From: Chiua virens
Taxonomy: Eukaryota; Basidiomycota; Agaricomycetes; Boletales; Boletaceae
Assembly: GCA_019787685.1 (NCBI GenBank)
Contig: JAHNUO010000019.1
Location: 496,001-560,000 of the forward strand
Length of the DNA stretch: 64,000 nucleotides
Direction of reading: 5' to 3'
Below are positions 17,294-43,452 of this stretch, piece after piece; within the stretch, counting starts at the first letter, position 1; each line of letters starts with the position of its first letter. Position numbers and translations under genes: made by a program. The notes below the pieces were generated by a model. It saw only the letters and a program-made list of their open reading frames with translations. It was not told where the DNA came from and ran no database searches.

Positions 17294-17516
17294 CGAGGCG
17301 TTTCACCCGAGTCGTTGCCTCGTAAGGTTAATTTTTTGGGGGTTTGTAAAGTTTGGATTTGAATAAGTATAATAGATTTGTTTAGGATATCAAAATTCAA
17401 ATCCACAATCTGTGAAATCAAGTGTCTTTTGTTGTATAGAAGTTTTATTCAGTATCAAGATATATATATTGTGATTGTACAAAAAAGCAAGAGTAAGTAT
17501 AAATATGAAGTAGATA

Positions 17517-20500
17517 TTAAATATTCAAAGTTCTAAAGACTTCTGACCAAACTACATTTGTTACATTGGTATCTTCCTCATGTGGGAATAAGACTTTGAT
17601 GTTTCTAGGGTGAGTACAGCGAGAGAGAGCAACATAGAGTTGACCATGAGAGAAAACAGAAGAACTGAGATTGAGGCCAACATGTCTGAGAGTTTGACCT
17701 TGAGCTTTATTGATGGTCATTGCATAGGCCAGATGGATAGGGAATTGGAGACGACGAAAGGGAACAGGAGAATCTTCTAGACCAGAGTCCAAGGCCATCC
17801 TAGGAATGAAGACCACATTTCCATCACCATTTTCATTGAGAACACGACATTCCAAGATCCTAGGGGTAGATCTCAATAGTCTGAGTCTTGTACCATTGTA
17901 GAGACCATGAAAGGGATCTAGATTGCGCAATAGCATGAGAGGAGCACCAATCTTGAGGTTCAGTTTGTGCAAGGGAAATCCAGAGGGATTGAAGGTATGA
18001 AGAACCTCAGGTTGAATGTAGTCATATTCTCTATCAGTGACAGAGTCAGCACTGAGATAGGTGGATGTTTCTGGAGGAGCAACAGAGTTGAGAATAGTGG
18101 CATTGATTTCATGCATTTGAAGATTTCTAGGGGAGAGAATGGTATGATCCAAGAAGTACTGATCTGGAAGATAATTGTTGCCAGTAATAAGATCAGAGTA
18201 GAGGGCATTGATGAGATCATCCATTGAGTCACCAGCTTTCATATGATCAGGAAGAGCAAGATCACCATCAGTGATGCCTATGTGAAGAAGATGTTGGGCC
18301 CAATTATCAGACTCAGGATCCTGGCCAAGACGCATGTTTTGATGAAGATAGTGGACAGACATGTTGGTCCAAAGGTTGGAATGAGTGAGAGTAGCAGGAA
18401 CAATCTGCTCTCTTGAACCATGTTGAATGACAGGCAAAGTCTGTCTAAAGTCACCACTAAAGAGAATGGTAATACCTCCAAATGGCTGGTTCCTGTTGAG
18501 CAAATCACGAAGAGTACGATCCACAGTCTCAATAACATGACGATGCTGAGAGGCAGCTTCATCCCAGATGATGAGAGAGGTTTGCTGAAGGAGTTGATGA
18601 TTGAGATCATCCTTTTTGATGTTGCAAGTGCTCTGATCATGGCAAGGAATTGGAATCTTGAATCTTGAATGGGCAGTACGACCACCAGGGAGCAGAAGAG
18701 AAGCCAGACCAGTGGATGCAACACAAAGAGCAATTTGACCTCTGGCACGAACAGCAGAAGCAATAAGTTTGGAGAGATAAGTCTTGCCACAACCACCACC
18801 ACTGTGAAGAAAGAACATGGTGCCTTGATTTTGTGCAATGCTATTCATGACAGCATGGTAGAGTGTGGTTTGGTGGGGATTCAAGGTAGTCAAACCTGTT
18901 TGAACAAAGGCTTGAAGCTCCTCTCTATTATAGGCTCTTTGCTCATTGATCAATTGATTGCCTTCAACAATATCCCAAATCTCCTGTGGCAAGGGCATGT
19001 TTTCATAGTCATGAAGGTGCTTTCCATGTCTTCTGAGAGCTTTTGCAATGAGGTATAGGCCATAGTCATAGATCTGATCTTGGGTTGGCTCAGGAATATG
19101 ATATGTGTGAATGAGCTGATAGAGAAGATCATCACAAAGACTATCTCTTGTGGCCTCCCATAAACGATGAGGATCCACAGGAGAGCAATGGACCAGAATG
19201 ATAGTGAAGAGATTGCGTAATTGAGCACCCATCCTAAAATGAGCAGCCTCTTGAAGACATGACAACCATTCTCTATCATCTTGAAGAAGACCATGAGCAC
19301 GACAAGCTTCTTTGAATGTTTCATGAATATGACCATTGACAGTACGAAGATCTTCAAAGGAAGTAGCACCTATGAGAAAAAATGATCAATATTGATCTAT
19401 GTGTGTATAATAAGTAATCTTACCTTTGACCACAGTGAGCAAAAGACGCAAATAGAAAGCCTCTCCAGCAGTGGCAGGAATGGAATACATGCGCCCAATA
19501 GCCTTGTATCTCTGACGAATTTTCCAAACAGCATGGCCTTGATGTCAAACAAACTTCTTGGGAAAGTCTTGATAAAGATAATCATGTGCTCCAGCAGCAA
19601 TGAGATCAGGATCTTGATTTGCCTTGAACCATCCAAGCAGTTGAGTGTCCTTGGCATTGTTGATAACCTCTTGCAAAGCAGCTTCAGCACGAAAGACAAT
19701 ATTTTGCCTGCCTGGAAGATGGACAGAAAGACGATAGATAGCTGGCCATTCCATGTGCATGGGAAACTCAAAGATATTATGGCAAGCTTGGGTGGAGGAG
19801 ATGTATCTGGCATCAAGATAGGAACGAATCTCATCATGACCTTCTGTTTGAATGGTAGCACGATCTGGACCCTTGTAGATATACTTGTGAATATATTTGA
19901 CAGCTTTGATGGAGCCACAGACTTCCAGATTGATGTGACAGTCAAACTGAGTCACCAGCTCCCTTGGATGAGGTACCACATGTCTGTTGTCAAAGGTATT
20001 CTCCCTCTTTTGAATGGTCCTGCCATTGTCAGGGCGAGCATAGTCAGGATACCCATTCTCTTTGATAATGGTGTGAGGAGAAAAGGGCTTGGGAAAGTGT
20101 TTTTTGCAGACATTGTTTTCAAGACACCTCTGAGGAGAGCAAGGACCATGGAGCATGGATCTGGTGATAATGGCATGAAGTTGGGGATAAATCTGAGGAT
20201 CTGGAATTTGGGCAGAGATGATGGCATCAACTTGTTGCACAGTATGAATCTTGTCTGGCCCTTCTAAGAAGATCAAGAGATGCATATGAGGCAGACCACG
20301 CTTCTGGTATTCAATGGTATAGACAAAACCAGCCACACCACCATAGTAGCCATCACGGATCTTCTTAAGCAAAGCTTTCTGCTTGGCATGAAAGACTCTG
20401 GTGACCAGATCAGGCCTATCCACAGCACTTTGACCTATTGTAATACATGGTGATCAGATTGTGGTCAAACACAATGAGTAAGAAAACAAACCTGGGAGCA

Positions 20501-22996
20501 AATTCTGAGTGATCTCTGGCCAGCTTCCATTGGCAGTCATGGTGAGAAATAGGTCTGGCTTTCTATATTCACGACAAATGGCTAGAGAATCTTGAAGAAG
20601 CTGCTGCATATAGCGAGGACCACCCTTATGAGTAGAGGGGAGGATGACACGTCCAATCTGAGCCATATCCTGAACACCATCCAGATGAGCCAAGCAGTCT
20701 TGTAATCCTTGATAGAGATCAGCTCTAAGCTTGGTTTGATTGTTGGCAATCCAAGTGAGATTACACTGGTCAATAGAAGCCCAAGCATCACAGATCAACT
20801 GCTGGAAAAGCCTTCCTCCTTTGAAGAGATTGGGTAATTCTATGTGTGGTGGACGAACATGGAGTCTATAGGCATACCAAAGCAATTGGGTGACATTTTT
20901 GGAGCAATGAGCACGACCATGACGAACATCTTGGAGTGGAATATCCAGGTGCCAGCCTTCCTCACCATGTGGAAAGAAAAGAACATAGTGAAGAGGAAGA
21001 TAGGATGGATGGAGATTGCTGATGCGACGTAGACCACCACCTTGAAGACGAAGGATAATATCACGATCCACTCTTGTATTTTCTTCACCATCACCAGGGA
21101 CAATTGCAGCTATCTCATCCACAGTAGGTAGATTGTATCTTCTGGCATCATCCCCTTGTTGTAAATAGAGTCTCATGTGCACATCAGTATGCTCCTCTGG
21201 AGGTTTGGCCTATATAATTAATATTATTATTAGCTTGTGTGATGAAATTAAAAATACATAAGCTAACCCTCATAATTTCATAGGCTTGTTTATAGAGAGG
21301 GGCATAAGGATGAAGATCTCTGAGAGTTGTATGCAACTCAAGCAAAATGCCAGCATCCAGTTGAGGATTGCGTTGAACACGTCTATTGGTTGCTTCCTCT
21401 GGATCATAGATGTAGAGCTGAGCAAAAGAAGGCTGAAGATCATCTGGTGGTACAAGAGCTCCCATGAGGTGATGAAGTGTGCCATGAATGCGGAATGATG
21501 AGGGTCCAGATCCTTGAATAGCTTGATTGTCCATATTCACACCCACAGAAGTGAAAGCCAAAGTGTTGTTATATTGTCGAATTTTCTTTTTAAACTCTCT
21601 ATGATCTTGTGGGTCATCAAAGAGATCCTGAAGTACACGTGGCCATTGTTGAATAGGAGGCAAAGAGACCTGGCCTTGAAGACAGCAGATGCCAAAGCGA
21701 GGATTATGAACACCAGAGTTTACCAACTTCTCAGAGATAAAGTGAAGAGCATGACAGTTTGGACATTGAACATTCATAGGGCCCAAAGAGTGAATTTGAA
21801 CAGGCTCAGCATATGGTCTTGCACCAGGAGGAACATAAGCAGGTGGTTGAAGATTATGATTGGCATTCTCAGAGTCACTGGAGCTGGGATCAGATGGATC
21901 AGGATCAGGATTGTTAGGATTGGGTGGTGGTGGACTTGGTGATGAATGTCTGGATGAAGAAGAGCTGGAGAGAGGAGTTAAAGGAGACATAGGAGAGCCA
22001 GGAGCTGAATTAGATCTATAATATTACAAATGAGACATATATTAATGAATACAAACAAAAGCTTACTGTTGTCTTGCCTGATCCTGCTGATAATGCTCTG
22101 CTGAGTGTTGACTATGTTCACTCAAAGCCTGTGAAAGCAAGGCTTGAGAGAGCTGTTGAATTTGCTGAAAAGCTTGTTGCTCTTGTTGCTCATGCTCATG
22201 CTGTTGCTGCTGCTCCTGAAGAAGTCTCTGATGATATAAGTTTTGTCTTTGCAAAGCCTCTTGTTGTTCCTGGAGAATCCTTTGCTCATGTAGCTCCTGT
22301 TGCCTCAATAGCTCTTGTTGAACCTCCAATTGTCTTTGATGCTGTAATTCCTGTCTTTGCAACAACTCCTGGTGTAAGTGTATTTGACCAAGATCAGGAC
22401 CAGGATGAGAAGAAGAAGAACGATTGTGTCTTTGATTGCGTCTTCTTTGATGAGCTTGATCAAAGTTTTCCAACAGGCGAGCATTATAATCTATCCTAGC
22501 ACCCATTGCTGGAGGGAAATTCAAAGGTGGTAGAGGTGGTGGCACAAATGCTTGATGATAAGGCAGTGGTTGACCAAGAGGAATAAATGGATGAGAAATA
22601 GCAGGTGGCATTAAAGGTGGTGGTGGTGGTGGTGGTGGTGGTGGGATGTTGGCAGGATGGAACTGATATTGTATTTGATTCCTATGTATACGTTGTATAT
22701 CATGATGTGCAATTTGATGACGGGGTATGCCAGGATATTGATTAACAGGAACAGGAGGATGAAGCTATAATTTATATTTAGTATCTTATAAATTTATATA
22801 ATAGATATGTAACAATTAACTTACTCTCAGGGCAGCAGGTAGACGGCGAGATGGAGGAGAACCAAGCTGACGTTGATCACGTTCAGCTTGGCGAGCAGTA
22901 TTTTGAGCACGCTGAGGAGAAGTAAGAGGAGAAGACCTAATAAAACATTTATATAAAACACTCCTATAGAAAATTTAGAATTTAAAATACTCACAT
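17517..22996 (-). CDS. Helitron Rep-helicase (unit 1)
   Basis: Rolling-circle replication initiator fused to a Pif1-type helicase. Seven exons: 22996-22995, 22936-22825, 22764-22067, 22015-21268, 21209-20492, 20434-19424 and 19369-17517. They sum to 5142 nt, 1713 residues. Order: Pro-rich and Gln-rich coiled coil (to about 270), a Cys-containing Helitron_like_N region (CPNCHALHF near 355), Rep with the HUH motif in RGLPHMHLLIFL (His809, His811) and the tyrosine pair in VKYIHKYIYKG (Tyr940, Tyr944), then helicase. Helicase motifs are Walker A GGGCGKT (1287-1293), IIWDEA, FSGDFRQTLPVI, AMTINKAQGQTL and YVALSRCTHPRNIK. All introns are GT..AG. The coding start is modelled as AT at 22996-22995 joined to G at 22936, giving MSSPLTSPQRAQ. 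No stop or frameshift was seen, so it may be active. Confidence 0.9.
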
Positions 22997-23039
22997 ATCA
23001 AATCAAATCAAGACAGAATATAGCCCAGATAAAAAAGAT

Positions 23040-23170
23040 CCAAGTCCAGAGGAAAAGTCCAGAGAAAGGGTCCAAGTCCAAAGAAAAGGTCCAGGTCTAG
23101 AGAAGGGTCCAGGTCCAGAGAAAGGTCCAGGTCCAGAGAAGGGTCCAGGTCCAAAGAAAGGGTCCAGTCT
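23040..23170. repeat. Minisatellite with 'aggtccaggtccagagaa' units
   Basis: Several imperfect copies of an 18-19-bp unit lie in the promoter-side part of Helitron unit 1. It is not present at the matching place in unit 2, so it is a private expansion of this copy. Confidence 0.7.
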
Positions 23171-23650
23171 TCAGAAAGGTAGTCAAGGATGCACACTAAT
23201 TCCCTTGTTTTACACAGCAGTGCCAAGAGTTAACTAAATGGCAATCAGGGTAGGAGTATGACAGAGCTAAAGGCAAAAGCCTGAGACAAAATGAAAGGTA
23301 ACAGCAAGCAGAAAGTAACAGATCAAAGATCTGCTAGTCTTCTTGACAGCCTCCAATCAAGTCTCTACTCTGTGGTGCAATCAGAGGTCTCAGCCAGAAA
23401 TGGCCTTGACAACCAGCAGACACACAGAGTTGAATCTGTGAAGCTAGGTAGTAAAGACTTGATCACACCTCTTCCCAAACAGCTGATTTTCACTCTCAAC
23501 ACACTGTAGTAAAACAAAGATCAAGTGCCTAATCCAAGAACTCACTTTCACACAAGATTTGATAAAACCTATATTATATTTCCTATGTAGATATGTTAGA
23601 TCATAGAAAAAACATGTACATACCTGTCAAGGATATAATCCAAAGCCCTT

Positions 23651-24085
23651 CACTGAGAAAAGCTGTCCCAGAGACAATACAACAATCTAGATCACAATAT
23701 AATATGTATGTCAATCTACAAGTCACAATATACATGAAGATCAACAAAAAAACCTTTTATCAGCAGCAAAGATCTGTTATCTTGATCATAAATCATAATC
23801 AGACTCTCATATAGCATTGTATAGTAATACACTTACCTTATGAAACCTTGAATTGAAACAGAAAATAGGAAAACAAAGACCTCAAGCAGAGAAAGTGAGT
23901 CCTCCACTGAGAAAAGCTGTCTTAGAGACAACACAACAACCTGGATCACAATATACATCAGTCTACAGGTTACAATATACATAAAGATCAGCAAGAAACC
24001 TCTTATCAACAGCAAAGATCTGTTATCTCAGCTTATCTGATGCCATAGATCATAATCAGACCATCATGTAGCATTATGTAGTGAT
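23651..24085. repeat. Direct repeat, about 180 bp, offset 254 bp
   Basis: The text from 'cactgagaaaagctgtc' at 23651 to 'agcaaagatctgttatc' recurs from 23905, with roughly 85-90% identity by eye. It lies inside Helitron unit 1 upstream of its gene. Confidence 0.7.
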
Positions 24086-24512
24086 GGACTCACCTTATCC
24101 AAGCTATATGTAGCCCTGTGTCAAGTAGGAAACAGGGGAAATGAGATGTCGGGCAGGGGAAGTGACTTTGAGAGGGATATTGATGGGGGGGAAAGGATGA
24201 CAGGTGGCTGTGCTACCGAGACTGAACGGACAACAGATATCGTGTCAGGCAATGCGACAACTGAGTTTGAATTGAAAAAGGAAAAACCACATGGCTAACA
24301 GAAGTTAGCGAAATAACCGAAATAGCCGAAATAGCCGAAATACGCGTCGGGTAAGACTCTCCCACACCCCGTTCTCCGCTCACTTTTTGACGAGGCGTTT
24401 CACCCGAGTCGTTGCCTCGTGAGGCTAGTTTTTTGGGGGGTTGTAAAGTTTGAGTAGGTATAATAGATTGATTTTGGATATGATGGTTACAAATGTATAG
24501 TAGTAGTACAAA

Positions 24513-27500
24513 TCATATTTGCAAGTTTCTAAATACTTCATTCCAAACAACATTTGTAACTTTGGTAGATTGGTGATTGTCTGGATCAGAAGGAAAGAGA
24601 ACTTTGATGTTTCTGGGATGAGTACAACGTGAAAGAGCAACATAGAGTTGACCATGAGAGAAAACAGGAGAAATCAAATTGAGACCAACATGGTTGAGAG
24701 ATTGACCTTGAGATTTGTTGATGGTCATTGAATAGGCCAAATGAACAGGAAATTGCAAGCGACGAAAAGGAACAGGAGAGTCTTCAAGACCACTATCCAA
24801 AGCCATGCGAGGGATGAAGACAACATTGTCATTGTGATTGGCACCCAATATGCGACACTCCAAAATGCGGCGAGTGGATCTGATGAGTCTCAAGCGAGTA
24901 CCATTGTAGAGACCATGAATGGGATCCAGATTGCGCAACAACATGAGAGGGGCACCTTCCTTGAGCTCCAGGTTGTGAAGGGGAAAACCTGAGGGATTGA
25001 AGGTATGGAGAACTTCTGGCTGGACATAGTCATATTCTGTGTCAGTGACAGAGTCAGCACTGAGATAAGTCAACTTCTGGTCAGGTGCCACTGAGTTGAG
25101 GATGGTAGAGTTGATGTCATGGACCTGGACATTCCTAGGAGCAAGAATGGTACGATCCAAAAAGTACTGATCAGGCAATGGCTGGTCTCTGGCCAGGAGC
25201 TGAGAGTAGATGGCATCAATGAGGGACTGCAAGTCATCACCAGAGCGCATGTGTTGAGGAAGGATGAGATCACCATCAGTGATGCCAATTTGAAGAAGCT
25301 GTTGTGCCCATTGATCAGATTCAGGATCATGGCCAAGACGCATATTTTGAAGGAGATAGTGAACAGTCATGTTGGCCCAGAGGTTGGAGTGTGTAAGAGT
25401 GGCAGGGACAATCTGTTCCCTTGAACCATGCTGAATGACAGGAAGAATTTGTCTAAAGTCCCCACTGAAGAGGACAGTGATACCTCCAAATGGCTGGTTT
25501 CTATTGAGAAGATCCTGAAGAGTACGATCCACAGACTCAACCACATGATGATGCTGAGCACCCACTTCATCCCAGATGATAAGAGATGTCTGCTCAAGAA
25601 GCTGGTGATTGAGATCATCCTTCTTGATGTTGCAAGTGCTCTGTTCATGGCAAGGAATGGGAATCTTGAAGTGTGAATGGGCAGTACGACCACCAGGGAG
25701 CAGAAGAGAAGCCAAGCCAGTGGATGCAACACAAAGGACAATCTGACCTCTTGCACGAACAGCAGAAGCAATGAGCTTGGCCAGATAGGTCTTGCCACAA
25801 CCACCACCACTATGAATGAACATCATGGATCCAGTGGAGTTGATGACACTGTTCATGACTGCATCATAGAGAGCTCTCTGTTGAGGATTCAAGGTAGGGA
25901 GACCTCTGTCCACAAAGGCTTGCTGTTCCTGTCTGTCATATGCTCTCTGCTCATTGATGAGTTGGTTACCCTGGAATTCCTCCCAAATGTGCTGTGGTCT
26001 AGGCATGGATGGATAGTCTTCCAAGCGTTTTCCATGTCTCCTGAGATCTTTGGCTATTAGATGCAAGCCATAATCAAAGACTTGGTCCTGGGTAGGGTCA
26101 GGAATGTTGAGAGTGTGGATGAGATAATGCTGTAAATCATCACAGAGGTTTTGCTTGAATGCCTCCCATAAGCGATCTGGGTCTACAGGAGAGCAATGGA
26201 CCAGGATGATGACAAACAAACGACGAAGTTGATAGCCCATGCTGAAATGAGCAGCCTCCTGAAGGCACAACAACCATTCTCTATCATCCTGCAAGAGACC
26301 ATGTGCACGACAGGCCTCTTTGAAAGATTCATGGAGATGGCCATTGAGAGTACGAAGATCTTCAAAAGAAGTAGCACCTATGAGAAGAAATGATGAACAT
26401 TGATCTATCTATGTACAATCAGTGAACTGACCTTTGACCACAGTGAGCAAAAGACGCAAATAGAAAGCCTCTCCAGCAGTGGCAGGAATGGAATACATTC
26501 TTCCAATGGCCTTGTATCTCTGACGAACCTTCCAAACACCATGACCTTTATGCCAGACAAACCTCTTAGGAAAGTCTTGGTAGAGGTAATCATGTGCTCC
26601 AGCAGCAATGAGATCAGGATCCTGGTTTGCCTTGAACCATCCAAGGAGCTGAGTGTCCTTTGCATTGTTGAGAACATCCTGCAAAGCAGCAGCAGCCTGA
26701 AAGACAATATTCTGATGACCTGGGAGATGGACAGAAAGACGATAGATGGCTGGCCATTCCATGTGCATGGGGAACTCAAAGATATTATGACAGGCCTGAG
26801 TGGAGGAGATGTATCTGGCATCAAGATAAGAACGAATCTCATCATGGCCTTCTGTCTGAATAGTAGCACGGTCTGGACCCTTGTAGATGTACTTGTGAAT
26901 ATATTTGACAGCCTTGATAGAGCCACAGACTTCCAGATTGATGTGACAATCAAATTCAACTACCAACTCCCTTGGATGAGGGACCACATGTCTGTTGTCA
27001 AAGGTGTCCTCTCTCTTTTGAATGGTCCTGCCATTTTCAGGGCGAGCATAGTCAGGATAGCCATCCTCTTTTATGACAGTGACAGGAGTGAATGGCTTGG
27101 GAAAGCGCTTTTTGCAGACATTGTTCTCAATACACCTCTGAGGAGAGCAAGGACCATGAAGCATGACTCTGGAGATGGCAGCATGAAGTTGGGGATAAAG
27201 CTGAGGATCTGGAATCTGAGCAGAGATAATGGCATCCACTTGTTCTGCAACACGAATCTTGTCTGGCTCCTCCAAGAAGATCAAGAGGTGCATGTGAGGC
27301 AGACCACGTTTTTGATACTCGATGGTGTAGACAAAGCCTGCCACTGTACCAAAGTAGCCACCACGAATTTTCTTAAGCAAGGCTTGCTGTTTGGCATGAA
27401 AGACCCTTGTGACCAGATCAGGCCTATCCACAGCACTTTGACCTATTGTGATGATCAGATGATGATCAGACATGATAAGCATAAAAACAAACCTGGAAGC

Positions 27501-30064: not shown

Positions 30065-30215
30065 GATATTCTGAAAACAAACAAAGAGGAGTTATAAAAG
30101 AGAAACCAAAGAGGTCTTGCTGTCTTCTTCGAGTGGGTCTCCAGTCAATAGCCACTCTATCTGGACGATACCCTCGCTTACGCAGAACTACTCTTTAACG
30201 CAGAGTATTACGATG

Positions 30216-30223
30216 TGACGTCA
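30216..30223. promoter_or_regulatory. TGACGTCA palindrome upstream of the unit 2 gene
   Basis: A perfect ATF/CREB-type site about 150 bp upstream of the modelled start of the unit 2 Rep-helicase. The sequence is certain; a role in transcription is only a guess. Confidence 0.25.
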
Positions 30224-31014
30224 CAGGTAAATCACACGAACCTGGGGACCAGATATATCGTCTATCCCTAAATGTAGTGGCTTGACGTCCCACTAAACCG
30301 CCCCTTGTGCACTATGGGGAACAGCAACGTTATCCTTGTTTATGACGGCGGACAACCGTATGTGCAGACGTGGCTATAGAGTGTCTTTCTCTGGTTATCA
30401 CGTGACCAACGGGCAAAGTGCTAGTGCCAATCTCCTTAACCCTGGAGTCCGGGTATGATACAATCACTACATTCATATTCATATTCAAAAAGATAGCATT
30501 CATTGATGAGATCATGGCTTGAAACACTCACCAAACACTCAGGATTGGCAAAGCAAGCCTTGCCAAGCAAGATCTGTGTGAAAAAACAAACAAAAGTGAC
30601 ATGAAGTGACACACTCACCAGAAGCAGGGAACACAAATAGGGAAAATCCAGGCCAAAAAGGCCTTATCAGTGAAGATCTATAGTGATAAGATCGCAATTT
30701 TGAAGGGATTATGGATGGAAGCTGACCTCTGTTGGGTATCCCAGGCAATTCCAGCAAAGAGTGATTTTTGGTGATTTTTTGGTGATTTTTTGGTGATTTT
30801 TGGTGATTTATTGGTGGAGATATGGTGATGATGATGATGAGGGACAGAGTCGAAGAGACGAAGAGGCGAGAAAGCAAAGGGACAGCCCAAAAAGGCAAGC
30901 ACGTGGCATTTAGCGACCGAAGCGAGCGACGCGCACAGCCGAGCGAGGAGCGAGACAGCCGAAATAGGCGTCGGGTACGACTCTCCCACGACCCGTTCTC
31001 CGTTAACTTATTGA

Positions 31015-33327
31015 CGAGGCGTTTCACCCGAGTCGTTGCCTCGTAAGGTTAAATTTTTTGGGTTTGTAAATAGTGGAGTGTCTGAGTCAAGGGAAATTAT
31101 GAGCAAGGTTTGATTTTATTTGAGTATTCAAGTATGTACAACATTCAAATGTAGACTCAAGTAGTCAAATTTATGATCAACAGCAAAACAAAGATACCAG
31201 AGTGAAATTAAAATCCAGGAAGGGTTGAGGGAAGTGGGATAACTGGGACATGTTGTGGCAGTCTCATGTCAATGCAAAGGTGGGAATAGGACCTAAATAG
31301 AGTCAGTAGAGTGGGCACCAAGGGGCAAATCAACCGGTTGTGAAACGAACGTACCACATTGAAATTGAGATATAAAGGGGGATAGGGGCAAGAGGAGTGG
31401 AGATGTCGGGGCTGTTTGATGTCGATATAGAGGTGGGAATGGTGGCTAAATAGACTAAATTGAGTGAGTATGAATCGATGAATCGATCGACAGCGAAACG
31501 AACATACCAAAATGAAATCAAGATCCAGGGAGGATCGAGGCAACTGGGGAGACTGGGATGGATTGGGGCCATTTCGGGTGGAAGTAAAAGCGGGACTGGT
31601 ACCTAAATGGACCCAATGGAGTGAGTACAAAGGGGCGAATCATTCAGTAGTGAAACGAACGTACCACAGTGAATTGAGTTGCAAGGAGGGTCGAGGCAAG
31701 TGGGGCGACTTGGGGCATGTCGAGGCCGTTTTGTGCAGATGTAAGGGCGAGGATAGCACCTACATATACTCAATGGAATGAGTACTGAGCGCTGAAACGA
31801 TCGGGGGTGAAACGAACGCACCACAGTGAATTTGAGGTCCAAGGGGGGTCAAGGCATGTAGGGTAACCGGGGCGTGCTGGGGCCGTTTCGGGTCGACATA
31901 AAGGCATGAATGGGACCTAAATGGATGTAGTAAAGTGTGTCCCAAGCGGCGAATCAACCGGTCATGAAACGAACGTACCACATTGATATTTCAGTCCAAG
32001 GGGGAGGGGAGGCAAGGGGAGCGACTGGGACATGTCGGGGGTGTTTCGAGTCGATTTAAAGGCAGGAATGGCACCTAAATAGACTCAGTAGAGTGGGCCC
32101 CAAGCGGGAAATCAATTGGTCGCGAAATGAACGTACCACATTGGAATTAAGGTCCATGGGGGGAGGGGAGGCAAGAGGAGTGGCTGGGACTTGTCGGGGC
32201 CATTTGAAGTCGATGTAAAGATAGGAATGGTGGCTAAATAGACTAAATGTAGTGGATACGAAGCAACGAATCGATCGACGGCAAAACGAACGTACCAAAG
32301 CGACAATAAGATCTAGGGAGGGTCGAGGCAAGTGGGGTGACCGGGATGCGTCGAGGCTGTTTCGGGTCGATGTAAAGGTGTGAATGGGACCTAAATATTC
32401 TCAATGGAGTGGGTACCAAGTGGTGAAACAATCGGTGGTGAAACGAACGCACCACACTGAATTTGAGGTCCAAGGGGGGTCAAGGCATGTAAGATAACCG
32501 GGACGTGCCGGGGCTGTTTCGGGTCGACATAAAGGCGTGAATGGCACCTAAATAGACATAATAGAGTGTGCCCCAAGCGGCGAATCAACCAGTCGTGAAA
32601 CGAACGTACCACATTGAAATTTCAGTCCAAGGGGGAGGGGAGGCAAGGGGAGCGACTGGGACATGTCGGGGGTGTTTCGGGTCGATGTAAAGGTAGGAAT
32701 GGTGGCTAAATAGACTAAATGTAGTGAATATGAAGCGACGAATCGATCGACGGCAAAACGAACGTACCAGAGCGAAAATAAGATCTAGGGAGGGTCAAGG
32801 CAAGTGGGGTGACCGGGATGTATTGGGGCTGTTTCAGGTGGATGTAAAGGTGGGAATGGGACCTAAATATGCTCAATGGAGTGAGTACCAAGTGGTGAAA
32901 CGATCGGTGGTGAAACGAACGCACCACACTGAATTTGAGGTCCAGGGGGGTCAAGGCAAGTGGGGTAACCGGGATGTGTCGGGGCCATTTCGGGTCGATG
33001 TAAAGTTGGGAATGGCACCTGGATACACTCAATGGAGCATGTACAAAGCGACGAAACAAACAGCGACGAAACGGACGTACCAGAGAGAATTTGAGGTGCA
33101 AAAGGCGAGGTCGAATCGAAAGCGAAGGGACAGCCCAAAAAGGCAAGCACGTGGCATTTAGCGACTGAAGCGAGCGACCCGAGCGAAGCGACCGACGCGA
33201 CTGATGCGACCGACGCGACCGACGCGACTGAAGCGCACAGCCGAGCGAGGAGCGAGACAGGCGAAACAGGCGTCGGAAATCGTCGTCGTGAGTCGCTCCC
33301 ACACCCCGTTCTCCGTTAACTTATTGA
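31015..33327 (-). mobile_element. Helitron unit 3, non-autonomous (2313 bp)
   Basis: Shares both ends with units 1 and 2 but has no Rep or helicase. The interior is about twelve diverged copies of a ~157-bp repeat; the 'cctaaat' or 'gctaaat' position recurs at about 31290, 31445, 31601, 31760, 31917, 32075, 32232 and onward. Near the right end is a 9-bp array of GCGACCGAC/GCGACTGAA units followed by 'cacagccgagcgaggagcg'. ORFs in this unit are by-products of the repeat. Confidence 0.85.
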
Positions 33328-36022
33328 CGAGGTGTTTCACCCGAGTCGTTGCCTCGTGAGGCTAGTTTTTTTGGGTTTGTAAAGTTTGAGTAGGTAGTGA
33401 ATTCAAGTTGTCTGAGTCAAGGTAAATTATGAGCAAGGTTTTATTTTATGAGTATTCAAGTATGTACAACATTCAATGTAGACTCAAGTAGTCAAATTTA
33501 CAATGGCAAAACAAACATACCAGAGTGAAATTAAAATCCAGGAAGAGTTGAGGGAAGTGGGATAACTGGGACATGTTGCAGCAGTCTCGGGTTGATGTAA
33601 AGGCAGGAATAGGACCTAAATAGAGTAAGTAGAGTGGGCACCAAGGGGCAAATCAACCAGTCACGAAACAAATGTACCACATTGATATTGAGACACAAAG
33701 GGGGATGGAGGCAAGAGGAATGACTGGGAGATGTTGGGGCTGTTTGATGAAATGGAGTGAGCATGATCGACGAACTGATCGACAACGAAACAAACATACC
33801 AAAATGAAATTAAGATCTAGGGAGGATTGAGGCAACTGGGGAGACTGGGATGGATTGGGGCCATTTCGGGTGGAAGTAAAAGTGGGACTGGTACTTAAAT
33901 GAACCCAACGGAGTGAGTACAAAGCAGCGAATGATTCAGTAGTGAAACGAACGTACCACAGTGAATTTGAGGTCCAAGGGGGGTCGAGGCAAGTGGGGCG
34001 GCTTGGTACATGTCGAGGCCGTTTTGCGCAGATGTAAGGGCGAGAATGGCACCCAAATACACTCAATGGAATGAGTACTGAGCGCTGAAACGATCGGGGG
34101 CGAAACGAACGTACCACAGTGAATTTGAGGTTCAAGGGGGGTCAAGGGATGTAGGGTAACCGGGGCGTGCCGGGGCCGTTTCGGGTCGACATAAAGATAT
34201 GAATGGGACCTAAATAGACGTAGTAAAGTGTGCCCCAAGCGGCGAATGAACCGGTTGTGAAACGAACGTACCACATTGAAATTTCAGTCCAAGGGGGAGG
34301 GGAGGCAAGGGGAGCGACTGGGACATGTCGGGGGTGTTTCGGGTCGACGTAAAGGCATGAATGGGACCTAAATAGACGTAGTAAAGTGTGCCCCAAGCGG
34401 CGAATGAACCGGTTGTGAAACGAACGTACCACATTGATATTTCAGTCCAAGGGGGGAGGGGAGGCAAGGGGAGCGACTGGGACATGTCGGGGGTGTTTCG
34501 GGTCGACGTAAAGGCATGAATGGGACCTAAATAGACGTAGTAAAGTGTGCCCCAAGCGGCGAATGAACCGGTTGTGAAACGAACGTACCACATTGATATT
34601 TCAGTCCAAGGGGGGAGGGGAGGCAAGGGGAGCGACTGGGACATGTCGGGGGTGTTTCGGGTCGACGTAAAGGCAGGCATGGCACCTAAATAGACTCAGT
34701 AGAGTGGTCCCCAAGCGGGAAATCAATTGGTCGCGAAATGAACGTACCACATTGAAATTTCAGTCTAAGGGGGGAGGGGAGGGAAGAGGAGCGGCTGGGA
34801 CTTGTCGGGGCCATTTGAAGTCGATATAAAGGTAGGAATGGTGGCTAAATAGACTAAATGTAGTGAATACGAAGCGACGAATCGATCGACGGCAAACCGA
34901 ACGTACCAGAGCGACAATAAGATCTAGGGAGGGTCGAGGCAAGTGGGGTGACCGGGATGCGTCGGGGCTGTTTCGGGTGGATATAAATGTGGGAATGGGA
35001 CCTAAATATGCTCAATGGAGTGAGTACCAAGTGGTGAAACGATCGGTGGTGAAACGAACGCACCACACTGAATTTGAGGTCCAAGGGGGGTCAAGGCATG
35101 TAAGATAACCGGGATGTGCCAGGGCTGTTTCGGGTCGACATAAAGGCGTGAATGGCACCTAAATAGACGTAATAGAGTGTGCCCCAAGCGGCGAATGAAC
35201 CGGTCGTGAAACGAACGTACCACAATGATATTTCAGTCCAAGGGGGGAGGGGAGGCAAGGGGAGCGAGTGGGACATGTCGGGGGTGTTTCGGGTCGACAT
35301 AAAGGCGTGAATGGCACCTAAATAGATATAATAGAGTGTGCCCCAAGCAGCGAATCAACCGGTTGTGAAACGAACGTACCACATTGAAATTTCAGTCCAA
35401 GGGGGAGGGGAAGCAAGGGGAGCGACTGAGACATGTCGGGGGTGTTTTGGGTCGATGTAAAGGTAGGAATGGTGGCTAAATAGACTAGATGTAGTGAATA
35501 TGAAGCGACGAATCGATCGACGGCATAACGAACGTACCAGAGCGAAAATAAGATCTAGGGGGGGTCAAGGCAAGTGGGGTGACCGGAATGTATTGGGGCT
35601 GTTTCAGGTCAATGTAAAGGTAAGAATAGCACCTAAATACACTCAAAAGAGTGAGTACGAAGCGACGAATCGATCGGCGATGAAACGGACGTACCAGAGC
35701 CAATTTGAGGTCGAAGGGGGGGGGGCTGAGGCAAGTGGTGTGACCGGGATGTGTCGGGGCCATTTCGGGTCGATGTAAAGTTGGGAATGGCACCTGGATA
35801 CACTCAATGGAGCATGTACCAAGCGACAAAACAAACAGCGACGAAACGGACGTACCAGAGAGAATTTGAGGTGCAAAAGGCGGGGTCAAGTCAAAGGGAC
35901 AGCCCAAAAAGGCAAGCACGTGGCATTTAGCGAGCGACGCGCACAGCCGAGCGAGGAGCGAGACAGCCGAAATAGGCGTCGGGTAGGTTTCTCCCACACC
36001 CCGTTCTCCGTTAACTTATTGA
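33328..36022 (-). mobile_element. Helitron unit 4, non-autonomous (2695 bp)
   Basis: Same ends; the left hairpin has one substitution (CGAGGTG), with no compensating change in the facing arm. The interior is the ~157-bp repeat, with a very clean stretch where 'ttcagtccaa' recurs at 34283, 34441 and 34600. About 500 bp (33947-34434) appears identical to unit 6 at an offset of 5289 bp. The 9-bp GCGACCGAC array is essentially absent. Confidence 0.85.
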
Positions 36023-38596
36023 CGAGGCGTTTCACCCGAGTCGTTGCCTCGTAAGGTTAATTTTTTTGGGTTTGTAAGGTTTGCTGAGTCAAGGTAAATT
36101 ATGAGCAAGGTTTTATTTTATTTGAGTATTCAAGTATGTACAAAATTCAAATGTAGACTCATGTAATTCAATTTATGATCAATGGTGAAACAAACATACC
36201 AGAGTAAAATCAGGAAGGGTCGAGGGAAGTGGGGTAACTGGGACATGTCACAGCAGTCTCGGGTTGATGTAAAGGTGGGAATAGGACCTAAATAGAGCAA
36301 GTAGAGTGGGCACAAAGGGGCAAATCAACCGGTCGCGAAACGAACGTACTGCATTGAAATTGAGACACAAAGGGGGTGGAGGCAAGAAGAGTGACTGGGA
36401 CATGTCGGGGCTGTTTGATGTCGATATAGAGGTGGGAATGGCGGCTAAATAGACTAAATGGAATGAGCATGAATCGATGAATCGATCGACAGCGAAACGA
36501 ATGTACCAAAATGAAATTAAGATCTAGGGAGGATCGAGGCAACTGGGGAGACTGGGATGGATCATGGCCATTTCGGGTCGAAGTGAAAGCGGGACTGGTA
36601 CCTAAATGGACCCAATGGAGTGAGTACAAAGCAGCGAATGATTCAGTAGTGAAACGAACTTACCACAGTGAATTTGAGGTCCAAGGGGGGTCGAGGCAAG
36701 TGGGGCAGCTTGGTACATGTCAAGGCCATTTTGGGCAAATGTAAGGGGAAGGGATAGCACCCAAATACACTCAATGGAATGAGTACTGAGCGCTGAAACG
36801 ATCGGGGGTGAAACGAACGCACCACAGTGAATTTGAGGTCCAAGGGGGGTCAAGGCATGTAGGGTAATGGGGGCGTGCCGGGGCCATTTCGGGACAACAT
36901 AAAGGCATGGATGGGACCTAAATGGACGTAGTAAAGTGTGCCCCAAGCAGCGAATCAACCGGTTGTGAAACGAACGTACCGCATTGATATTTCAGTCCAA
37001 GGGGGGAGGGGAGGCAAGGGGAGCGACTGGGACATGTCGGGGGTGTTTCGGGTCGACGTAAAGGCATGAATGGCACCTAAATAGACGTAGTAAAGTGTGC
37101 CCCAAGCGGCAAATCAACCGGTCGTGAAACGAACGTACCACATTGATATTTCAGTCCAAGGGGGGAGGGGAGGCAAGGGGAGCGACTGGGACATGTCGGG
37201 GGTGTTTCGGGTCGATGTAAAGGCAGGAATGGCACCTAAATAGACTCAGTAGAGTGGGCCCCAAGCAGGAAATCAATTTGCTGCGAAATGAACGTACCAC
37301 ATTGAAATTAAGGTCCAAGGGGGGAGGGGAGGCAAGAGGAGCGGCTGGGACGTGTCGGGGCCATTTCAAGTCGATGCAAAGGTAGGAATGGTGGCTAAAT
37401 AGACTAAATGTAGTGAATACGAAGCGACGAATCGATCGACGTCAAAACGAACGTACCAGAGCGACAATAAGATCTAGGGAGGGTCGAGGCAAGTGGGGTG
37501 AGCGGGATGCGTCGGGGCTGTTTCGGGTGGATGTAAAGGTGGGAATGGGACCTAAGTATGCTCAATGGAGTGAGTACCAAGTGGTGAAACGATCGGTGGT
37601 GAAACGAACGCACCACACTGAATTTGAGGTCCAAGGGGGGTCAAGGCATGTAAGATAACCAGGACATGCCGGGGCTGTTTTGGGTCGACATAAAGGCATG
37701 AATGGCACCTAAATAGACATAATAGAGTGTGCCCCAAGCGGCGAATCAACCGGTCGTGAAATGAACGTACCACAATGATATTTCAGTCCAAGGGGGGAGG
37801 GGAGGCAAGGGGAGCGACTGGGACATGTCGGGGGTGTTTCGGGTCGACATAAAGGCGTGAATGGCACCTAAATAGACATAATAGAGTGTGCCCCAAGCGG
37901 CGAATCAACCGGTTGTGAAACGAACATGCCACATTGATATTTCGGACCAAGGGGGAGGGGAGGCAAGGGGAGCGAGTGGGACATGTCGGGGGTGTTTCGG
38001 GTCGATGTAAAGGTAGGAATGGTGGCTAAATAGACTAAATGTAGTGAGTATGAAGCGACGAATCGATCGACGGCAAAACGAACGTACCAGAGCGAAAATA
38101 AGATCTAGGGAGGGTCAAGGCAAGTGGGGTGACCGGGATGTATTGGGGCTGTTTCGGGTCAATGTAAAGGTGGGAATGGGACCTAAATATGCTCAATGGA
38201 GTGAGTACCAAGTGGTGAAACGATCGGTGGTGAAACGAACGCACCACACTGAATTTGAGGTCCAGGGGGTCAAGGCAAGTGGGGTAACCAGGAGGGGTTG
38301 GGGCCATTTCGGGCCGACATAAAGATTGGAATGGGACCTAAATACACTGAATGGAGTGTGTACCGAGCGACGAAACAAACAGCGGCGAAACGGACGTACC
38401 AGAGAGAATTTGTCCAAAAGGTGAGGTCGAGTCGAAAGCGAAGGGACAGCCCAAAAAGGCAAGCACGTGGCATTTAGCGACTGAAGCGACTGACGCGACC
38501 GACGCGACCGAAGCGCACAGCCGAGCGAGGAGCGAGACAGCCGAAATAGGCGTCGGGTAAGACTCTCCCACGCCCCGTTCTCCGTTAACTTATTGA
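36023..38596 (-). mobile_element. Helitron unit 5, non-autonomous (2574 bp)
   Basis: Same ends, ~157-bp repeats inside, and a short 9-bp GCGACCGAC array near the right end. No protein gene. Confidence 0.85.
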
Positions 38597-41036
38597 CGAG
38601 GCGTTTCACCCGAGTCGTTGCCTCGTGAGGCTAGTTTTTTGGGGGGTTGTAAAGTTTGAGTAGGTAGTGGATTATCTGAGTCAAAGTAAATGGTTTTATT
38701 TTATTTGAGTATTCAAGTATGTACAAAATTCAAATGTAGACTCATGTAGTTCAATTTATGATTGACAGTGAAATAAACATACCAGAGTGAAATCAGGAAG
38801 GGTCAAGGGAAGTGGGGTAACTGGGACATGTCGCAGCAGTCTCGGGTTGATGTAAAGGCGGGAATAGGACCTCAATAGAGTAAGTAGAGTGGGCACCAAG
38901 GGGCAAATCAACTGGTCGCGAAACAAACGTACCACATTGAAATTGAGACAAAGGGGGATGGAGGCAAGAGGAGTGACTGGGACATGTTGGGGCTATTTGA
39001 TATTGATATAGAGGTGGGAATGGCGGCTAAATAGACTAAATGGAGTGAGCATGAATTGACGAATCGATCGACAGCGAAACGAACGTACCAAAATGAAATT
39101 GAGATCTAGGGAGGATCGAGGCAACCGGGGAGACTGAGATGGATCGGGGCCATTTTGGGTGGAAGTAAAAGCAGGACTGGTACCTAAATGGACCCAATGG
39201 AGTGAGTACAAAGCAGCGAATGATTCAGTAGTGAAACGAACGTACCACAGTGAATTTGAGGTCCAAGGGGGGTCGAGGCAAGTGGGGCGGCTTGGTACAT
39301 GTCGAGGCCGTTTTGCGCAGATGTAAGGGCGAGAATGGCACCCAAATACACTCAATGGAATGAGTACTGAGCGCTGAAACGATCGGGGGCGAAACGAACG
39401 TACCACAGTGAATTTGAGGTTCAAGGGGGGTCAAGGGATGTAGGGTAACCGGGGCGTGCCGGGGCCGTTTCGGGTCGACATAAAGATATGAATGGGACCT
39501 AAATAGACGTAGTAAAGTGTGCCCCAAGCGGCGAATGAACCGGTTGTGAAACGAACGTACCACATTGAAATTTCAGTCCAAGGGGGAGGGGAGGCAAGGG
39601 GAGCGACTGGGACATGTCGGGGGTGTTTCGGGTCGACGTAAAGGCATGAATGGGACCTAAATAGACGTAGTAAAGTGTGCCCCAAGCGGCGAATGAACCG
39701 GTTGTGAAACGAACGTACCACATTGATATTTCAGTCCAAGGGGGGAGGGGAGGCAAGGGGAGCGACTGGGACATGTCGGGGGTGTTTCGGGTCGACGTAA
39801 AGGCAGGCATGGCACCTAAATAGACTCAGTAGAGTGGTCCCCAAGCGGGAAATCAATTGGTCGCGAAATGAACGTACCACATTGAAATTTCAGTCTAAGG
39901 GGGGAGGGGAGGGAAGAGGAGCGGCTGGGACATGTCGGGGCCATTTGATGTCGATATAAAGGTAGGAATGGTGGCTAAATAGACTAAATGTAGTCAATAC
40001 GAAGCGACGAATCGATCGACGGCAAACCGAACGTACCAGAGCGACAATAAGATCTAGGGAGGGTCGAGGCAAGTGGGGTGACCGGGATGCGTAGGGGCTG
40101 TTTCGGGTGGATGTAAAGGTGGGAATGGGACCTAAATATGCTCAATGGAGTGGGTAGCAAGTGGTGAAACGATCGGTGGTGAAACGAACGCACCACACTG
40201 AATTTGAGGTCCAAGGGGGGTCAAGGCATGTAAGATAACCGGGACGTGCCGGGGCTATTTTGGGTCGACATAAAGGTGTGAATGGCACCTAAATAGACAT
40301 AATAGAGTGTGCCCCAAGCGGCGAATCAACCGGTTGTGAAACGAACGTACCACATTGATATTTCAGTCCAAGGGGGAGGGGAGGCAAGGGGAGCGACTGG
40401 GACATGTCGGGGGTGTTTCGGGTCGATGTAAAGGTAGGAATGGTGGCTAAATAGACTAAATGTAGTGAATATGAAGCGACGAATCGATCGACGGCAAAAC
40501 GAACGTACCAGAGCGAAAATAAGATCTAGGGAGGTCAAGGCAGGTGGGGTGACCGGGATGTATTTGGGCTGTTTCGGGTCGATGTAAAGGTGGGAATGGG
40601 ACCTAAATATGCTCAATGGAGTGAGTACCAAGTGGTGAAACGATCGGTGGTGAAACGAACGCACCACACTGAATTTGAGGTCCAGGGGGGGTCGAGGCAA
40701 GTGGGGTAACCAGGATGTGTTGGGGCCATTTCGGGCCGACGTAAAGATTGGAATGGAACCTAAATACACTGAATGGAGTGTGTACCAAGCGACGAAACAA
40801 ACAGCAACGAAATGGACATACCAGAGAGAATTTGTCCAAAAGGTGAGGTCGAGTCGAAAGCGAAGGGACAGCCCAAAAAGGCAAGCACGTGGCATTTAGC
40901 GACTGAAGCGACCGACGCGACCGACGCGACCGAAGCGACCGACGCGACTGAAGCGCACAGCCGAGCGAGGAGCGAGAGAGCCGAAATAGGCGTCGGGTAA
41001 GACTTTCCCACGCCCCGTTCTCCGTTAACTTATTGA
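38597..41036 (-). mobile_element. Helitron unit 6, non-autonomous (2440 bp)
   Basis: Same ends, ~157-bp repeats inside. Contains the segment 39236-39723 that appears identical to part of unit 4. The 9-bp array near the right end is longer than in unit 5. No protein gene. Confidence 0.85.
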
Positions 41037-43452
41037 CGAGGCGTTTCACCCGAGTCGTTGCCTCGTAAGGTTAATTTTTTTGGGTTTGTAAAGTTTGAGT
41101 AGGTCAAAGTAAATGGTTTTATTTTATTTGAGTATTCAAGTATGTACAAAGTTCAAGTGTAGACTCATGTAGTTCAATTTATGATTGACAGTGAAACAAA
41201 CATACCAGAGTGAAATCAGGATGGGTCAAGGGAAATGGGGTAACTGGGACATGTCACAGCAGTCTCGGGTTGATGTAAAGGTGGGAATAGGACCTAAACA
41301 GAGTAAGTAGAGTGGGCACCAAGGGGCAAATCAACTGGTCGCGAAACGAACGTACCACATTGAAATTGAGACAAAGGGGGATGGAGGCAAGAGGAGTGAC
41401 TCGGACATGTTGGGGCTGTTTGATATTGATATAGAGGTGGGAATGGCGGCTAAATAGACTAAATGGAGTGAGCATGAATTGACGAATCGATCGACAGCGA
41501 AACGAACGTACCAAAATGAAATTGAGATCTAGGGAGGATCGAGGCAACTGGGGAGACTGGGATGGATCGGGGCCATTTCGGGTGGAAGTAAAAGTGGGAC
41601 TGGTACTTAAATGAACCCAACGGAGTGAGTACAAAGCGGCGAATGATTCAGTAGTGAAATGAACGTACCACAGTGAATTTGAGGTCCAAGGGGGGTCGAG
41701 GCAAGTGGGGCGGCTTGGTACATGTCGAGGCCGTTTTGTGCAGATATAAGGGCAAGGATAGCACCCAAATACACTCAATGGAATGAGCACCGAGTGCTGA
41801 AACAATCGGGGGCGAAACAAACGTACCACAGTGAATTTGAGGTCCAAGGGGGGTCAAGGCATGTAGGGTAACGGGGGCGTGCCGGGGCCGTTTCGGGTCG
41901 ACATAAAGGCATGAATGGCACTTAAATAGATGTAGTAAAGTGTGCACCAAGCGGCGAATCAACCGGTTGTGAAACAAACGTACCACATTGAAATTTCAGT
42001 CCAAGGGGGGAGGGGAGGCAAGGGGAGCGACTGGGACATGTCGGGGGTGTTTCGGGTCGACGTAATGGCACCTAAATAGACGTAGTAAAGTGTGCCCCAA
42101 GCGGCAAATCAACCGGTCGTGAAACGAACGTACCACATTGATATTTCAGTCCAAGGGGGGAGGGGAGGCAAGGGGAGCGACTGGGGCATGTCGGGGGTGT
42201 TTCGGGTCGACGTAAAGGCAGGAATGGCACCTAAATAGGCTCAGTAGAGTGGGCCCCAAGCGGGAAATCAATTGGTCGCGAAATGAACATACCACATTGA
42301 AATTAAGGTCCAAGGGGGGGGGAGGCAAGAGGAGCGGCTGGGACTTGTCGGGGCCATTTGAAGTCGATGTGAAGGTAGGAATGGTGGCTAAATAGACTAA
42401 ATGTAGTGAATACGAAGCGACGAATCGACCGACGGCAAAACGAACGTACCAGAGCAAAAATAAGATCTAGGGAGGGTCGAGGCAAGTGGGGTGAGCAGGA
42501 TGCGTCGGGGCTGTTTCGGGTGGATGTGAAGGTGGGAATGGGACTTAAATATGCTCAATGGAGTGAGTACCAAATGGTGAAACAATCGGTGGTGAAACGA
42601 ACGCACCACGCTGAATTTGAGGTCCAAGGGGGGTCAAGGCATGTAAGATAACCGGGACGTGCCGGGGCTGTTTTGGGTCGACATAAAGGTGTGAATGGCA
42701 CCTAAATAGACATAATAGAGTGTGCCCCAAGCGGCGAATCAACCGGTTGTGAAACGAACGTACCACATTGATATTTCAGTCCAAGGGGGAGGGGAGGCAA
42801 GGGGAGCGACTGGGACATGTCGGGGGTGTTTCGGGTCGATGTAAAGGTAGGAATGGTGGCTAAATAGACTAAATGTAGTGAATATGAAGCGACGAATCGA
42901 TCGACGGCAAACCGAACGTACCAGAGCGAAAATAAGATCTAGGGAGGGTCAAGGCAAGTGGGGTGACCGGGATGTATTTGGGCTGTTTCGGGTCGATGTA
43001 AAGGTGGGAATGGGACCTAAATATGCTCAATGGAGTGAGTACCAAGTAGTGAAACGATTGGTGGTGAAATGAATGCACCACACTGAATTTGAGGTCCAGG
43101 GGGGGTCGAGGCAAGTGGGGTAACCAGGATGTATTGGGGCCATTTCGGGCCGACGTAAAGATTGGAATGGGACCTAAATACACTGAATGGAGTGTGTACC
43201 AAGCGACGAAACAAACAGCAACGAAATGGACGTACCAGAGAGAATTTGTCCAAAAGGTGAGGTCGAGTCGAAAGCGAAGGGACAGCCCAAAAAGGCAAGC
43301 ACGTGGCATTTAGCGACTGAAGCGACCGACGCGACCGAAGCGACCGACGCGACTGAAGCGCACAGCCGAGCGAGGAGCGAGACAGCCGAAATAGGCGTCG
43401 GAAATCGTCGTCGTGAGTCGCTCCCACACCCCGTTCTCCGTTAACTTATTGA
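41037..43452 (-). mobile_element. Helitron unit 7, non-autonomous (2416 bp)
   Basis: Rightmost unit; its end (TTATTGA) meets the host peptidase exon at 43453. Interior of ~157-bp repeats. The right-end flank (gtcggaaatcgtcgtcgtgag) matches unit 3 rather than units 5 and 6. Confidence 0.85.

Follow-up and report, generated by a model that had tools for sequence, protein, structure and literature searches.

Introduction

Helitrons standing head to tail in tandem have been mentioned for bat, silkworm, maize, rice, Drosophila, and plant centromeres (cited in PMC4067079, PMC5148889, and PMC5876387), and distantly related Helitrons are mentioned side by side in bat and maize (PMC4067079, PMC5876387); the comparisons made here rest on passages of the cited reports. 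These earlier tandems were ascribed to bypass of the terminator or to circles. In contrast, the family junctions and the relatedness of the units in F1, a Helitron family of the basidiomycete Chiua virens, favor serial insertion. F1 was studied from an array of seven units in a window of 64,000 nucleotides (contig JAHNUO010000019.1, here C19, positions 496001-560000) of the 48.3-Mb genome, which comprises 136 contigs. Tandem Helitrons are already known; what is described here is an array-building habit in which the junctions point to serial insertion at the 5′ ends of Helitrons. Among titles and the opening lines of abstracts, no report of a test of serial insertion was found; the primary papers on maize, on Drosophila tandem insertions, and on bat Helitrons lay outside that scope and may overlap.

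The FoHeli elements of Fusarium and three copies in Metarhizium acridum are tandem, as F1 is. One FoHeli4 copy lies 2 bp upstream of the 5′ end of another, and the three Metarhizium copies were attributed either to insertion into a 5′ end or to rolling-circle replication, with no choice made between the two. FoHeli elements differ from F1 in being Helitron2-like, in carrying asymmetric terminal inverted repeats, and in their targets (PMC5148889). HELPO1 and HELPO2 of Pleurotus ostreatus come, like F1, from a mushroom, insert between A and T, and occur as autonomous and nonautonomous copies; HELPO2, with CTTG, also departs from the canonical 3′ CTRR. Helitron clusters are mentioned on two P. 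ostreatus chromosomes. In contrast to F1, the passages on HELPO describe no spacer-free arrays, and the main text of that report does not contain the words "tandem" or "array" (PMC4289320).

Helraiser/Helibat1 resembles F1 in a Rep-helicase (RepHel) that is alike over nearly its full length, in the HUH motif and paired tyrosines, in the 5′ TC, and in the A^T target, where the caret marks the insertion point (PMC4778049). The two differ in that F1 ends in CTCG rather than CTAG, the F1 palindrome reaches the last base whereas that of Helraiser lies 11 nt inside, and F1 copies form mixed arrays. Nonautonomous Helentrons (DINE-1/HINE and those of oyster) share with the short F1 units an interior of tandem repeats (PMC4067079, PMC7492417), but their target is T-T (PMC4067079), whereas F1 belongs to the canonical clade and uses A^T.

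Architecture of the array and its host site

The array occupies window positions 17294 to 43452, with units starting at 17294, 24391, 31015, 33328, 36023, 38597, and 41037 and no spacer between them. An earlier note on this DNA, made from the sequence alone, had delimited seven units of 7097, 6624, 2313, 2695, 2574, 2440, and 2416 bp, all in the same orientation and joined by six spacer-free junctions, and each of these points was borne out. The 29-nt terminal motif is perfect in six of the seven units, with a single change in the unit at 33328 (CGAGGTG). Inverted copies of the ends were sought across the window with up to seven substitutions in the 29-nt motif and up to six in the 24-nt motif, and neither end yielded any. 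The ends themselves had been assigned the wrong way around: because the minus strand encodes the open reading frames (ORFs) that match Rep (PF14214) and helicase (PF05970), the 3′ end is the one reading CGAGGCG..., and TTATTGA, or TCAATAA in the coding sense, marks the 5′ end. Each unit reads 5′-TCAATAA...CGCCTCG-3′, and a typical one in the coding sense is TCAATAAGTTAACGGAGAACGGGG ... CGAGGCAACGACTCGGGTGAAACGCCTCG. The features of the array and its flanks are as follows.

16918..17226, minus strand: 3′ part of the host Peptidase A4 gene, matching profile positions 73-136
17294..24390, minus strand: unit 1, class A long Helitron of 7097 bp, adjoining the host Peptidase A4 gene at its 3′ end
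17517..22023, minus strand: Rep-helicase gene of unit 1, part read, with predicted introns, interrupted by TGA
19545..19547, minus strand: in-frame TGA of unit 1, between Rep and helicase; unit 2 has Trp there
24391..31014, minus strand: unit 2, class B long Helitron of 6624 bp, with 99.7% identity to C35_u4 on another contig
24513..29106, minus strand: Rep-helicase gene of unit 2, part read (1,476 amino acids), open
31015..33327, minus strand: unit 3, nonautonomous Helitron with an interior of ∼157-bp repeats
33328..36022, minus strand: unit 4, nonautonomous, mosaic; resembles C2_u1 at its ends and the unit 6 group in its middle
36023..38596, minus strand: unit 5, nonautonomous, mosaic
38597..41036, minus strand: unit 6, nonautonomous; 99.0 to 99.5% like C1_u4, C3_u4, and C48_u3
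41037..43452, minus strand: unit 7, nonautonomous, mosaic; its 5′ end adjoins a host A
43453..43680, minus strand: host Peptidase A4 gene, 5′ part (profile positions 17-68), stopping at the insertion point

Units 3 to 7 share with the long units a 5′ stretch of ∼100 to 160 bp and a 3′ stretch of ∼58 to 70 bp. They had been described as gene-less derivatives of the long units, but they are not simple internal deletions: their interiors (window 31222-33101 and 33942-43214) consist of diverged ∼157-bp repeats with higher-order periods near 315 and 472.

Both flanks of the array match Peptidase A4 (PF01828). When joined, they align at ∼70% identity with an array-free paralog at C7:2137650-2138450 over both flanks and with the array-free C3:388350-388700 over the junction and one flank. 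The ∼70% paralog alignment reveals no target duplication, while the A itself is not shown by it. The array therefore interrupts a peptidase gene between A and T, probably within an exon. The left flank was also considered as the 5′ end of a third Helitron family, a candidate that was rejected on the Peptidase A4 match. Elsewhere in the window, a tandem repeat at 1357-2201 has a period of 221 bp, 3.8 copies, and 92% matches, and ORFs neighboring the array match the HET, NB-ARC/NACHT, WD40, and SKN1/KRE6 families.

Arrays across the genome and junctions with a second family

The genome search that the earlier note had suggested revealed six more arrays, giving seven on six contigs. They differ in unit sizes and flanks and comprise 6 units on C1, 8 on C3, 5 on C19 at 296 kb, 7 in the window, and 4 on C35; on C48 five units were read, one of them of the second family F2, with further units toward the contig end, and C2 holds 2 units and one F2 copy. 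At ≤3 mismatches the genome contains at least 55 F1 3′ ends and at least 42 5′ ends, the repeat counts of this census being lower bounds. A Helitron 5′ end is abutted by 34 of the 55 F1-type 3′ ends (6 on C1, 8 on C3, 5 on C19 at 296 kb, 6 in the window, 3 on C35, 4 on C48, and 1 each on C11 and C2), and that 5′ end is F1 type in 29 cases and F2 in 5. The remaining 21 abut other DNA, always at T, and represent 14 loci after duplicated flanks are merged. Random use of A^T would place roughly 8e-6 of insertions at a catalogued Helitron 5′ end, with the A^T frequency taken from the host part of the window only.

Insertion between A and T without target duplication, a canonical Helitron mark, holds across the catalogued copies, most single copies having been read only within 151 bp around one end. 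Leaving aside ends joined to the opposite end of another F1 or F2 element, T follows all 21 of the 3′ ends (14/14 after duplicated loci are merged) and A precedes 20 of 21 of the 5′ ends (15/16 after merging).

F2, which starts with TCTAAAAACTAAAGGGAGAACGGC, is represented by at least 12 copies of its 5′ end, five of them abutted by an F1 3′ end. Four F2 copies of 1,233 bp (on C1, C3, C19 at 296 kb, and C11; pairwise identity, 99.1 to 99.8%) all differ in their 3′ flanks, and the 5′ end of every copy is abutted exactly by an F1 unit. The F1 contents beside them differ (6, 8, 5, and 1 units), the C11 copy carrying a single solo F1 unit. A long F2 copy on C48 has F1 on both sides, in the order F1|F1|F1|F2|F1, and on C2 an F2 copy adjoins an F1 5′ end, so that F2 3′ ends also meet F1 5′ ends. 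Read-through beyond the terminus of one family leaves unexplained why the other starts so precisely at so many of these places. If F2 was there first, every step follows A^T; if F2 came second at the four loci, G^T was used four times. The 1,233-bp element has repeats of its own at a 159-bp step and shows no match to unit 6 at an E value of 1e-5. A further F2-like match on C10 lies outside the sequences fetched.

Paired 5′ ends 214 bp apart, each after A, occur at C4:2503676/2503890, C30:155529/155743, and C66:11823/12037, and resemble the multiple 5′ termini of FoHeli (PMC5148889). The segments C66:1-17000 and C30:152001-172000 share the same element ends and flanks in opposite orientation and are a large duplicated segment or an unmerged haplotype.

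Relatedness and mosaic structure of the units

By whole-unit identity, the nearest relative lay in the same array for 0 of 37 units (shuffle mean, 4.8; P = 0.025). This count disregards pairs whose lengths differ by more than 1.35-fold and the unit C19a_u5 but takes in the solo unit C11_u1, which cannot have a same-array relative. Near-identical (≥98%) 300-bp ends formed 69 pairs, with C19a_u5 and the F2 unit C48_u2 omitted, and none of these pairs came from one array, a value not reached in any of 20,000 shuffles (mean, 8.6). With C19a_u5 included, same-array pairs numbered 0/40 and 0/32. At 96%, they made up 9 of 107 pairs for 5′ ends and 3 of 50 for 3′ ends, compared to 14.0 and 6.5 expected. 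In these and the other tests on 300-bp ends (mosaic and hybrid), alignments covering less than 85% were counted as unlike. Same-array near-identical ends are thus rarer than chance across the arrays on C1, C2, C3, C19 (two), C35, and C48, which counts against local duplication. The deficit may reflect assembly collapse, recombinational loss of near-identical neighbors, or avoidance.

Near-identical copies of the window's units do exist, in other arrays. The twin of unit 2 is C35_u4 (99.7%), and unit 6 has twins in three other arrays (99.0 to 99.5%). The account of two coding donors and five derivatives as a local story is not supported in the light of these twins and of the short units, which are mosaics of lineages found across arrays. 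Among 30 short units (435 pairs; C48_u2 is again omitted from the hybrid test below), identity of ≥98% was found in 39 pairs over the 5′ 300 bp, in 26 over the 3′ 300 bp, and in 10 over both, with a correlation of 0.09; relatedness at one end is almost independent of that at the other. Windowed matching, the output of which covered 12 units, resolved units 4, 5, and 7 into 250-bp pieces 94 to 100% alike to different units of several arrays. Because the short units of the window are alike piecewise to several units, whole-unit identity is a poor clock for them; it had first hinted that most units lack a close copy, which the windowed matching overturned.

These patterns suggest that recombination or gene conversion probably acts on the arrays, while misassembly could be another source of mosaics. 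Short units that are hybrids of two neighbors numbered 2, 1, and 0 at 98, 97, and 96% (P = 0.30, 0.88, and 1.0), with 1, 3, and 4 in a reversed-order control. Collinear unit pairs between arrays at four thresholds numbered 14, 8, 3, and 1, compared to shuffle means of 16.2, 6.6, 1.2, and 0.7 (P = 0.70, 0.31, 0.10, and 0.53) and to 17, 5, 2, and 1 pairs in reversed order. Among 35 junctions, those alike on both sides formed 1, 4, and 13 pairs at three thresholds (P = 0.65, 0.20, and 0.15).

Rep-helicase genes and Helitron class

The Helitron identity proposed in the earlier note was confirmed: almost the entire unit 2 protein can be aligned with the Helraiser transposase of the bat (7lcc, 819 bits), with GLPHMH aligned to GLPHAH (the HUH motif) and YIHKY to YLFKY (the paired tyrosines). 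ORFs of the units match the Helitron_like_N and PIF1 profiles, that is, an HUH Rep and a PIF1-type helicase. The best 120 of 1,084 transposase homologs include Coprinopsis, Phanerochaete, Amanita, and Psilocybe, and also Rhododendron, Aquilegia, Ceratodon, and Morchella.

Two Rep-helicase genes had been called intact, but at most one is, since unit 1 carries the in-frame TGA. Unit 2 is open over the part read, 1,476 codons joined across three predicted GT-AG introns (28266-28208, 27492-27443, and 26431-26378), with the N-terminal exons and start codon not located. Its relatives C35_u4, C3_u6, and C1_u2 are open over the same part of the gene. In the class B genes of these four arrays, the ratio of nonsynonymous to synonymous substitutions (dN/dS) is 0.09 to 0.14 (six pairwise comparisons, 3,588 bases). 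With the copies open and dN/dS this low, most of their divergence probably predates insertion. The observed/expected CpG ratio is 0.23 to 0.37 in seven long F1 units, compared to ∼0.9 to 1.1 in short ones.

All units listed start with the canonical 5′ TC. The 3′ end is not the canonical CTRR but mostly CTCG, with a few ends decayed to CTTG or CTCA, and F2 also ends in CTCG. The canonical hairpin ∼10 to 15 nt before the 3′ end is absent from F1, in which a 6-bp stem, CGAGGC/GCCTCG, closes on the last base (DNA fold, -5.3); in F2 copies the hairpin lies further inside the 3′ end. As to the marks of Helitron2/Helentron elements, the longest inverted match between the ends of four elements was 6 to 7 nt, no better than in shuffles, and no Pfam match to an extra endonuclease domain was found in ten ORFs scanned, in which the N-terminal exons are unresolved. 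F1 is a new member of the canonical-clade Helitrons with an unusual 3′ end.

Origin of the arrays

Of the three origins that the earlier note had offered, repeated insertion at the element's own end is the best supported. We conclude that the F1 arrays probably grew head to tail as successive elements inserted at the 5′ boundary of a resident Helitron. F1 copies start with TC, end in the hairpin CGAGGC...GCCTCG, and sit between a flanking A and T. The 5′ boundary of an inserted copy thus reads A^TC again, each insertion recreating a legal target, so that a newcomer there would abut the resident without spacer or target base. Under the proposed mechanism, RepHel, presumably the cutter at A^TC when transposition starts, would bind and nick the 5′ terminal sequence of the resident, and the incoming 3′ end, on a copy that is probably a circle, would join there by the circle-closing chemistry acting in trans. 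Later reshuffling by recombination or gene conversion through the common repeats would yield the mosaic short units. In the window, the array probably started with an insertion into the Peptidase A4 gene, most simply by unit 1. Exclusive use of A^T would imply growth at the outermost 5′ boundary, with the inner units oldest. The 12 hairpin changes in 32 units, every one a CpG transition, tend to fall in inner units (P = 0.038), and the observed/expected CpG ratio runs in the expected direction (P = 0.15 and ∼0.25). C48, with its inner end running toward the contig end, was excluded from both gradient tests. A broader reading, for and against which we see the case as evenly balanced, is that the Helitron 5′ end is a self-renewing landing site for its own and related families, RepHel's recognition of the start site doubling as target choice; the arrays would then be safe-haven docks that grow from A^TC, join diverged lineages, and reshuffle short elements into mosaics with exchangeable ends.

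Several points weigh against serial insertion. Whole-unit CpG decay gives no clear gradient along the arrays (all units, P = 0.08; short units, P = 0.13), the corresponding values for GpC, used as a control, being 0.21 and 0.37. The near-identical twins of units 2 and 6 sit inside arrays, which insertion at internal junctions fits too. In both C1 and C3, the u4|u3 junction lies within a shared block of ∼99% identity that stops inside u3; at least one junction was therefore probably copied by recombination, to judge from this block. The lack of near-identical neighbors could stem partly from assembly collapse or recombinational loss. F2 might have arrived second, at the 3′ boundary of F1, and one F2 5′ end, on C12, is flanked by G. 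The outer flanks of single copies were compared with F1 and F2 ends only, not with those of further, unrelated Helitron families.

In rolling-circle read-through, the 3′ terminator is passed, one element is copied repeatedly, and the concatemer inserts in a single event. This origin, which has been given for the tandem Helitrons of bat and silkworm (PMC4067079), fits spacer-free head-to-tail junctions but predicts near-identical neighbors, and neither the nearest relatives (0/37) nor the near-identical ends (0/69) are found within an array. Nor does it readily join F1 to F2 at five places. We regard it as very unlikely; it would be rescued only if assembly collapse or recombination had removed near-identical neighbors. 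Unequal crossing-over or gene conversion, expanding an initial pair and homogenizing its units, would account for the mosaic short units (39, 26, and 10 of 435 pairs) and for the junction-spanning block common to C1 and C3, and is likely as a secondary process. As the main builder it is unlikely: it makes no F1|F2 junctions, and the arrays show no near-identical ends within an array, no excess of neighbor hybrids, and no clear collinear excess (P = 0.10 to 0.70). Read-through and unequal exchange are thus both unsupported as the main route because neighbors are not nearest relatives and five F1 3′ ends lie on F2.

Circles have been reported for Helraiser (PMC4778049) and supported in Fusarium (PMC5148889), and circular intermediates could enter resident copies by homologous recombination, the junction being the joined ends of the circle. 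Mosaic units would follow from this too. An F1 circle holds an F1|F1 junction, however, and cannot join the 3′ end of F1 to an F2 element whose 5′ end is intact, the arrangement seen at five loci and, at one of them (C11), with a solo F1 unit; we consider this route quite unlikely. The ends of different Helitrons might instead be joined in trans during simultaneous transposition, with mixed multimers inserting as blocks at host A^T sites. The same HUH chemistry would presumably serve, mixed lineages and F1|F2 junctions fit, and arrays are flanked by A and T as single elements are. Against such blocks stand the lack of a clear excess of common unit order between arrays and the four F2 copies with different flanks that hold 6, 8, 5, and 1 F1 units, making this origin highly improbable. 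That the arrays are an assembly artifact is the least probable of all: mosaic units and missing near-identical neighbors fit misassembly or collapse, but seven arrays lie on six contigs with differing unit sizes and flanks, and an array-free paralog matches both flanks in the window.

Serial insertion at resident 5′ ends, if true, could explain clusters of unrelated Helitrons elsewhere and would provide a setting for nonautonomous elements to exchange ends. This genome offers enough arrays, with F2 as a marker, to separate 5′-end insertion from rolling-circle replication. Bacterial HUH transposons of the IS200/IS605 type insert at copies of the site at which they themselves are cleaved. Helitrons would have this habit in common with them if the 5′ end is a preferred target.

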